A stretch of DNA of 64,000 bases from Rhodospirillaceae bacterium. GTDB taxonomy: Bacteria; Pseudomonadota; Alphaproteobacteria; Rhodospirillales; Rhodospirillaceae. Below, piece by piece: positions 15,995 through 21,905 of the stretch. A program made the translations under genes and the position numbers. Below the pieces are notes generated by a model. That model was not told the origin of the DNA. It saw only the letters and a list, made by a program, of their open reading frames with translations, and did no database searches. Every line of letters begins with the position of its first letter. The first letter of the stretch is position 1. Location of the stretch: contig JAVJSV010000012.1 of assembly GCA_040219235.1 (NCBI GenBank), positions 186,001-250,000 on the forward strand, read 5' to 3'.

Positions 15995-17236
15995 TTAGCC
16001 CGGCGCGTGACCCCGCATCAGGTTAGGCAAATCCCCCACCTGGCCCATGGCATGGCGCATCAGAGTCTGGCGCAGCGGCGGCAGCACGTTGACCGTTGCT
16101 AGCCCAATATCACGCAGTGTTCTCAGAGGTGGAATGTCGTTCGAGAACAGCCGGTTTAAAAGGTCTGTCGTGCCAGCCATCAATATATTATCGGCCCGCC
16201 GCCAGCGTTGATAGCGTGCCAACCCTGCCGTATGGGCCAAATCAAGGCCGTAGCGTTTGGCATCCACCAGAATGTCTAACAAGGCTGCCACATCGCGAAG
16301 ACCCAGGTTCAAGCCCTGTCCGGCGATGGGATGAATACCGTGGGCCGCGTCACCAACAAGCGCAAGCCGTTGATCCGTGTAGCGTTCTGCAATCTGCAGC
16401 CCCAACGGGTGATCAAAGCGCGGCCCCACCAAAGACAACGTGCCAAGGAATCCGCCAACGCGCTGATCAATTTCTTGCAGAAACGCAGCGTCATCTAACG
16501 CCATGAAAGATCTGTAGGTCGAGGCTTTCTCCGTCCACACCAACGACGACTGATGGCCGCCTTTCAGGGGTAGAATGGCGAATGGCCCAGACGGCAGAAA
16601 CCGTTCATGGGCGATGCCGTTGTGAGACCGTTCGTGTTTAATCGTGGCCACAATGGCCTGTTGATCATACCGCCATCCGGTCACATTAATGCCAGCACTC
16701 TGCCGTGTTTTTGAGGCGCGTCCGTCAGCGGCGACAATCAGTTGGCCAGAGACCAAACGGCCATCATCCAGGTGGACCTCAGTGTGGGTTTCGTCACGTT
16801 TGATGTGATCCACGTTCACGGGTGCGAGCACGGACAGATTGTCCTGCGCTGCCATCAGCGCCAGCAGCCCTGTTCTTAGCGTCCGGTTTTCGGCCATATG
16901 GCCCAGGGGCTGATCGCCAATCTCTTCATGGTCGTAATGCAAAAACATCAAAGACGAACCGTCAGACACCCTGATTTCCCGGATCTCGCCGGTTTGATCG
17001 GCAATCAAGGGCCATAACCCGATGCCCTCCAGGGCAATGCGGCTGGCGTGGGCAATGGCCGAGGCGCGGCCATCGAGGGTTGGGGATAGGGTTGCGGCGG
17101 GGTCAGAGCGGTCAACCATAACGGTTGAGATGCCGTTGGCCGACAATCCACAGGCCAGGGTGGACCCGATCAGGCCCGCCCCTATCACAATAACGTCGGT
17201 TTCTATGCGTTCAGCCATACCGTGGATTTCGCTCAT
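15995..17236 (-). CDS. UbiH/UbiF/COQ6-family FAD-dependent ubiquinone hydroxylase
   Basis: The 413-residue flavoprotein monooxygenase has an FAD Rossmann motif VIVIGAGLIGSTLACGL at residues 15-31, a DG motif in LIVAADGRAS, and the family signature LALVGDAAHGIHPIAGQGLN near 284-303. These enzymes hydroxylate the benzoquinone ring in aerobic ubiquinone synthesis. Which ring position (C5, C6 or C1) cannot be told from sequence reading alone. It is convergent with the DUF971 gene (24-bp gap). Its 5' leader contains the left copy of the 26-bp repeat that bounds the sulfotransferase-like gene. Confidence 0.9.
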   Translation of the reverse strand: MSEIHGMAERIETDVIVIGAGLIGSTLACGLSANGISTVMVDRSDPAATLSPTLDGRASAIAHASRIALEGIGLWPLIADQTGEIREIRVSDGSSLMFLHYDHEEIGDQPLGHMAENRTLRTGLLALMAAQDNLSVLAPVNVDHIKRDETHTEVHLDDGRLVSGQLIVAADGRASKTRQSAGINVTGWRYDQQAIVATIKHERSHNGIAHERFLPSGPFAILPLKGGHQSSLVWTEKASTYRSFMALDDAAFLQEIDQRVGGFLGTLSLVGPRFDHPLGLQIAERYTDQRLALVGDAAHGIHPIAGQGLNLGLRDVAALLDILVDAKRYGLDLAHTAGLARYQRWRRADNILMAGTTDLLNRLFSNDIPPLRTLRDIGLATVNVLPPLRQTLMRHAMGQVGDLPNLMRGHAPG

Positions 17237-17270: not shown

Positions 17271-17296
17271 GTCTTCGAAGCGCTTTAATTTTGTGC
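17271..17296. repeat. 26-bp direct repeat, left copy (bounds sulfotransferase-like gene)
   Basis: The unit runs GTCTTCGAAGCGC followed by TTTAATTTTGTGC and recurs identically at 18394-18419, 1,123 bp away. It contains the overlapping palindromes CTTCGAAG and AAGCGCTT. The left copy lies 34 bp upstream of the UbiH-family start codon. Confidence 0.9.
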
Positions 17297-17326
17297 ATTA
17301 TCCGCGCATCGGCAATAATATGAAGA

Positions 17327-18316
17327 ATGATCTTCAGTAAGGCAAAAGCAGTGACTAGCGAAACAACAAAATTGCGTTCTCAGGATTGGTGTCTAATTGC
17401 ATCTCTGAAGAAATCCGGCTCTCTGTATACACATGCTTTACTTCAGGCCGCAGTTAAGTCTTTAGGTCATCCAGATTCACGCCCATACAATGCGACACCT
17501 GTTTCGCAGTGGTATCCCATTCTTCGACATACTCCAAATCTATATTCTCTGTCTGAGCATACTCAAACAGTTTTCGCAGACTCGGAAAATAGAACGCACT
17601 TTAGTTCTTCAGATGTTGCGTTTTACGAAGCGATTTGTTCCGAAAATCTTAGCAAACATGTTTCGGGAATATTGGGATGCCTGAATGACACTGAACGTAT
17701 TACACTGTCTTGTGAACGGATTCACAGGTTGCTGTCTCTCTATCCGGCTGGGAAGCCGACCATAACGGTTGATCCAAATTTCCTGATGGACAACGGTATC
17801 TTCGCAACTAACTTTTTGTTTGAAACCTTAAGGTCCAGATTGTCAGGTATAAACATAAGACCTTTCGTCGTTGTGCGGAATCCGCGCGATGTTATGAATT
17901 CATATATTCAAATGCTCTTCGAGCATGAAAAGGAAACACCTGAGAGTATCAGTAAATCAAAAAATTACTTATTCAAAAAGGCTTATTTCTCAGGAGCGCT
18001 ACATTTGATACGTGGTCACGGTGATGTTGTCGTATTTGATTTCAAATTTCTTAAGGACGATCCTTTGGGTTTTTTATCAACTATCGGTCAACACTTAGGC
18101 ATTAAATTGTTTAACCCTGATACTATCCAGTTGCCAGTAATTCCAAATAAATCAAAGGCCAAAGCCGAAGATATAATGCCAGCGGAAGATTTGGCCCGCC
18201 TCCATGCAGAATTAGTTGGCGAAGTAGAGACTTACAAACAACTTTTTAAACATGGCAGCACTGTTGTTCTCTCGTCTATAGATGTTCCTGAGTACGTCCG
18301 TCAGTTGCCAAAATAA
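17327..18316 (+). CDS. Sulfotransferase-like protein on a repeat-bounded module
   Basis: The 329-residue protein has two weak PAPS-site matches: LKKSGSLYTHALLQ at residues 27-40 (5'-phosphosulfate loop, normally KSGTTWL-like) and PFVVVRNPRDVMNSYI near 180-195 (3'-phosphate loop with R and S). The length fits cytosolic-type sulfotransferases, which move sulfate from PAPS to hydroxyls. A catalytic His is not obvious, so activity is uncertain. The gene is markedly A+T-rich compared with the block around it, has no clear Shine-Dalgarno, and lies alone between perfect 26-bp direct repeats next to tRNA-Thr, which suggests recent acquisition. Confidence 0.65.
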   Translation: MIFSKAKAVTSETTKLRSQDWCLIASLKKSGSLYTHALLQAAVKSLGHPDSRPYNATPVSQWYPILRHTPNLYSLSEHTQTVFADSENRTHFSSSDVAFYEAICSENLSKHVSGILGCLNDTERITLSCERIHRLLSLYPAGKPTITVDPNFLMDNGIFATNFLFETLRSRLSGINIRPFVVVRNPRDVMNSYIQMLFEHEKETPESISKSKNYLFKKAYFSGALHLIRGHGDVVVFDFKFLKDDPLGFLSTIGQHLGIKLFNPDTIQLPVIPNKSKAKAEDIMPAEDLARLHAELVGEVETYKQLFKHGSTVVLSSIDVPEYVRQLPK

Positions 18317-18393
18317 TAGTTAACTTATTCGAAACGTTAAAGTATGTAACTACTGACAGTTGTATCGCGATTTCACCGGTTAAGAGGGGCAAA

Positions 18394-18419
18394 GTCTTCG
18401 AAGCGCTTTAATTTTGTGC
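18394..18419. repeat. 26-bp direct repeat, right copy
   Basis: Identical to 17271-17296. It lies 81 bp upstream of tRNA-Thr. Identity ends sharply at both sides (flanking bases C versus A on the left and A versus G on the right). Confidence 0.9.
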
Positions 18420-18499
18420 GTTCATGCTCTATGGTCCCGCCGCTTTCAAGATTGGGCGGCATCAGTGATTTGCCCAACTTCGTATGCCCAATTTAGTAT

Positions 18500-18574
<75 letters not shown>

Positions 18575-19254: not shown

Positions 19255-19265
19255 GCTCTCCTTCA

Positions 19266-19313
19266 GCGGGTTTATTTTTACCGGGTTTATTTTCACCGGG
19301 TTTATTTTCACCG
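19266..19313. repeat. 15-bp tandem repeat (3.2 copies) at a convergent gene junction
   Basis: Units CCGGGTTTATTTTCA lie at 19266-19280 (with GC start and TTA end variants), 19281-19295 and 19296-19310, with a partial fourth. They lie between the stop of the Cys-rich protein gene and the convergent solute-binding-protein gene, whose stop codon falls in the last copy. Confidence 0.9.
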
Positions 19314-21849: not shown

Positions 21850-21905
21850 GCAGTCCTTAAGATTATTCGCGATTACCGCAGTCCTTAAGATTATTCGCGA
21901 TTACC
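21850..21905. repeat. 28-bp perfect tandem duplication at the 3' end of the yccA-like gene
   Basis: The two copies are 21850-21877 and 21878-21905. The unit starts GCAGTCCTTAAGATTATT and ends CGCGATTACC. It copies the gene's last codons (GGTAATCGCGAATAA on the minus strand) plus 13 bp of downstream DNA. Confidence 0.95.

Follow-up and report, generated by a model that had tools for sequence, protein, structure and literature searches.

A foreign DNA segment carrying a single sulfotransferase-like gene is inserted between two ordinary genes, ubiH and tRNA-Thr, of a marine alphaproteobacterium. It is well established that this was a clean insertion which duplicated 26 bp of host DNA with no net loss. 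We consider it rather likely that illegitimate recombination placed a fragment of about 1.1 kb, with a complete sulfotransferase gene, at this site in a single event. The features of the locus are collected in Table 1, in which positions refer to the window, i.e. the whole stretch of 64,000 nucleotides that was analysed.

Table 1. Position of the insertion and of its neighbouring features in the window.
Feature	Position	Strand	Remarks
ubiH-type FAD monooxygenase, left neighbour	15995..17236	-	alignment of relatives suggests a true start about 20 nt further in
26-bp direct repeat GTCTTCGAAGCGCTTTAATTTTGTGC, left copy	17271..17296	.	duplicated host target sequence; found only twice in the genome
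Inserted foreign segment, 1,097 bp	17297..18393	+	40.7% GC; no transposase or integrase; empty site in relatives
Sulfotransferase-like gene, 329 aa from ATG	17327..18316	+	PF00685, E = 1.9e-5
26-bp direct repeat, right copy	18394..18419	.	continues into a conserved tRNA-Thr promoter-like block (CTTTAA ... TATGGTCCCGCCG)
TATGGTCCCGCCG anchor downstream of the repeat	18430..18442	+	putative -10 region of tRNA-Thr; conserved in 7/7 nearest relatives
tRNA-Thr (CGT)	18500..18574	+	Rfam

Empty site in related genomes

The host is related to metagenome-assembled genomes of the Rhodospirillaceae. Relatives are colinear with the locus from tRNA-Gly, over ubiH and tRNA-Thr(CGT), to transporter and membrane-protein genes further downstream, as had been expected of the block around the insertion, and they lack the sulfotransferase there. 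The interval from GTCAACC on the ubiH side to TATGGTCCCGCCG on the tRNA side measures 71 bp in six of six same-genus genomes. When the insert and one repeat copy are subtracted, the present locus also measures exactly 71 bp. Ungapped identity to these six genomes amounts to 46-53 of 71 positions overall and to 13-18 of 26 within the repeat; in all six, the identity of the repeat is above that of shuffled repeats (p < 0.01). The same interval is 62 bp long in a seventh relative, which belongs to another genus. The same-genus intervals are thus colinear to the base with a locus lacking the insert and one repeat, indicating that the insertion left 26 bp of host DNA in two copies and removed none. 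Both marks of a target duplication were therefore found, namely an empty site with one copy and no net loss. The original prediction had proposed to compare this interval, and the empty site that it anticipated was present in all same-genus relatives examined.

Owing to this lossless duplication of the target, each neighbour retains no less than 26 bp of the native DNA upstream of it, and the putative tRNA-Thr promoter is part of what was kept. The conserved TATGGT follows CTTTAA of the right repeat copy at a distance of about 17 bp; judging from conservation, the right copy probably restores this promoter. The tRNA-Thr beside which the gene had been placed was indeed found by Rfam, which detected two tRNAs and nothing else. 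Directly upstream of tRNA-Thr, a 14-bp imperfect tandem duplication (TGCCCAACTTAGTA) was observed at 18471-18502; the intervals of relatives are shorter.

An assembly artefact or chimera has to be considered, as the genome is a 21-contig draft. However, the flanks are colinear on an 894-kb contig, and the foreign DNA would need the host's unique 26-mer at both ends. We regard this explanation as extremely improbable.

The inserted segment and its gene

The insert was originally described as a single A+T-rich gene with no transposase between the repeats, and this description holds. Its GC content (Table 1) compares with 52.7% over 370 kb, in which 0.14% of equal-sized segments are as low. The GC3 of the sulfotransferase-like gene is 0.37, versus 0.63-0.71 for its neighbours. 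The composition of the inserted gene is foreign. The segment contains this gene only, with 30 bp ahead of the open reading frame and 77 bp behind it. No transposase, integrase or recombinase gene was found in the insert, and no terminal inverted repeats were reported for it.

The Sulfotransfer_1 profile (PF00685) matched the product with 24.7 bits, above the curated cut-off of 22, in agreement with the predicted sulfotransferase-like identity. PAPS-binding motifs can also be read in the sequence: a P-loop-like KKSGSLYTHALL (5'-PSB) and RNPRDVMNSY (3'-PB, RxPxDxxxS). Because of the profile match and of these P-loop-like and RNPRD motifs, the product is probably an intact sulfotransferase. Its start may be the GTG at 17351, following AAGG, which would give 321 aa and is a likely alternative. 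A single-sequence AlphaFold model, computed with no alignment, had a mean pLDDT of 34 and was set aside. A hybrid promoter, TTGTGC-17-AATAAT, was considered for the gene and rejected, as the promoter scan gave no plus-strand promoter there.

Searches of 60 relatives and of 73 genomes from the family, 385 from the class and 398 from the phylum (overlapping sets, about 800 other Pseudomonadota) detected no homologue of the gene, nor did searches of phages, plasmids, IMG/VR or the genome collection (genome_contigs). These searches reach moderately distant relatives only; that there are very distant ones is clear from the PF00685 match. Another sulfotransferase-like protein of the same genome (C16:101855), which is also 329 aa long, has no detectable homology to the inserted gene. 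Among the plasmid and phage DNA matches listed for the region, only the tRNA was represented.

Homologous recombination with DNA already holding the flanks, for example from a strain of the same species with the gene, would also yield a perfect match and an identical anatomy through lateral spread within the species. It would merely push the original insertion one step back, and no such strain was present among the collections searched. We consider such an origin highly unlikely.

The 26-bp repeat

The two copies are identical, and the position and identity reported for them in the original prediction were both correct. An ungapped match between them extends to 35 bp at 91% but is perfect over 26 bp only. 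The 26-mer occurs twice in the whole genome, both times at the ubiH/tRNA-Thr locus. Beyond these two copies, no match with up to 3 mismatches was found in the genome or in 60 relatives, and no exact match in IMG/VR. The proposed search thus shows that the unit is no dispersed regulatory motif.

Exact separated repeats with copies up to 6 kb apart reached at most 14-17 bp in ten 370-kb Markov-3 resamples; the 26-bp pair is beyond chance. It is also the longest separated pair in 770 kb of the real genome, surveyed in sampled stretches, outside tandem arrays and REP-like palindromic units. The only longer separated pairs in this sample came from a 12-bp tandem array at a contig end, a local 34-bp tandem array and a 30-bp REP-like palindrome.

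Two palindromes, CTTCGAAG and AAGCGCTT, are located within the repeat and had been likened to recombination cores. CTTCGAAG occurs four times in the window, versus 1.07 expected. Both palindromes are missing from the corresponding position in relatives; they are private to this genome and therefore do not form a conserved recombination core. Moreover, the repeat corresponds to poorly conserved host intergenic DNA, so that an att core or homology arm of this sequence is unlikely to have come with the incoming DNA. Host sequence that was duplicated at insertion is a better reading of the 26-bp repeat than a recombination core. Of the mobile single-gene cassette, or excision and integration through short homology, that had been proposed, the insertion is borne out by the empty site. 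The mobile cassette with recombination cores is not, as no second repeat, gene or similar cassette was found.

The main rival to illegitimate recombination is the integration of a single-gene cassette through a site-specific recombinase supplied in trans, with the two 26-bp repeats as attL and attR. Conservative site-specific integration would leave the pattern observed, with a clean and lossless insertion, an identical core and an adjoining tRNA gene. The two palindromes in the repeat are consistent with it, and so are eight tyrosine recombinase matches in the genome; tyrosine recombinases other than the probable XerC and XerD have their genes elsewhere in the genome and could act in trans. 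The lack of further core copies in the genome, the relatives and IMG/VR argues against this explanation. In addition, the core differs between sister species and its palindromes are private, so that the element would need a core proper to one species, and the site precedes the tRNA instead of lying in its 3' end. The insert has no integrase or recombinase of its own, and neither a core common to other integrations nor a conserved attB was found. We judge integration in trans unlikely; it stays the main rival because, by the anatomy alone, an att core of 26 bp and a target duplication of 26 bp look the same.

A non-autonomous element making a 26-bp target-site duplication would likewise copy host sequence exactly and cause no net loss. 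However, 26 bp is far above the usual target-site duplication length of insertion sequences, and of the features by which an insertion sequence or MITE would be recognised, no terminal inverted repeats were reported, no transposase is present in the insert and no other copies of the gene were found. Transposition of this kind appears quite improbable.

Proposed capture of foreign DNA during repair

About 11 perfect tandem duplications with units of 19-34 bp were found in 770 kb of the genome. The 26-bp flanking duplication thus matches in size a local class of mutation that is ordinary in this genome. One of these, a perfect 28-bp duplication at 21850-21905, is located at the 3' end of a Bax1-inhibitor-like gene, 4 kb from the insert. 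It has no counterpart in four relatives, where terminator and gene end follow each other almost directly. A 25-bp duplication at C12:323883 falls in a stretch that is shorter in relatives, in a noisy alignment.

Under illegitimate recombination, we infer that a staggered break with ends about 26 nt apart would have been filled in and sealed around the foreign fragment. Equivalently, a polymerase may have switched template onto the foreign DNA and returned 26 nt behind its point of departure. The insertion would then be a short duplication of the genome's own 19-34 bp class, with foreign filler. The foreign DNA may have arrived by transformation or by phage. ComEC is encoded in the genome, so that DNA uptake is possible; ComEC is also present in species not known as competent. 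No Ku was found in the genome, which makes replication-based or Ku-independent joining likelier than non-homologous end joining; the classical bacterial form of the latter is unlikely.

The locus looks like a one-off repair accident and not like a travelling cassette, and a single event of its kind was seen in 770 kb. The length of 26 bp would also fit an element with a fixed duplication length. An undescribed route, mobilising single genes with no recombination gene of their own and duplicating about 26 bp of arbitrary target DNA, seems very unlikely.

Comparison with known systems

Genomic islands with attL and attR near tRNA genes resemble the locus in their foreign DNA beside a tRNA gene, their perfect direct repeats and the empty site in relatives. 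In contrast, the locus has one gene and no integrase, and its repeat precedes the tRNA without belonging to it, with a unique and unconserved core. Integron gene cassettes are also compact single-gene modules with little non-coding DNA. Unlike them, the insert has no attC-like hairpin at its 3' end (folding z-scores of +1.4 and +1.2 on the two strands, worse than shuffles) and its repeats are duplicated host DNA; an integron cassette was therefore rejected.

Illegitimate recombination in transformation usually replaces or deletes host bases, unlike the present event, in which they were duplicated and none was lost. Foreign DNA joined to the chromosome without long homology is common to both; double illegitimate and homology-facilitated illegitimate recombination have been described in bacterial transformation (Hulter and Wackernagel 2008; de Vries and Wackernagel 2002; as cited in PMC8116780). 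In patch-mediated break repair, staggered or paired nicks give rise to short tandem duplications (Vaughn and Bennetzen 2014, as cited in PMC8355091). It shares with the locus a perfect target duplication of a few tens of bases without loss, and tandem versions occur in the same genome. These duplications were described in eukaryotes, with joining largely dependent on Ku or Pol theta (PMC8355091), whereas the locus has a 1.1-kb foreign gene between the copies and no Ku was found.

When a single foreign gene enters a bacterial chromosome with no mobile element involved, its way in usually cannot be seen, since the junctions decay. At this locus both junctions have been preserved and the empty site is known with single-base precision, so that the footprint, an exact 26-bp duplication with no loss, can be read. 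This base-exact footprint of a single-gene acquisition without a mobile element was seen once. If the case is general, such footprints could be counted across genomes, which would measure break-repair capture as a route of gene gain.

Other repeated units were noted in the genome. A palindromic REP-like unit, TGGATTCGCCGGTCAAGCCGGCGAATGACA, has two copies 1,075 bp apart (L098 5015-5044 and 6090-6119), and a parS-like site, TGTTTCACGTGAAACA, has three copies within 0.8 kb of one contig (L073 10333-11108). In the window, a 15-bp unit (TTCACCGGGTTTATT) is repeated 3.5 times at 19262-19313, after a small secreted-protein-like gene.
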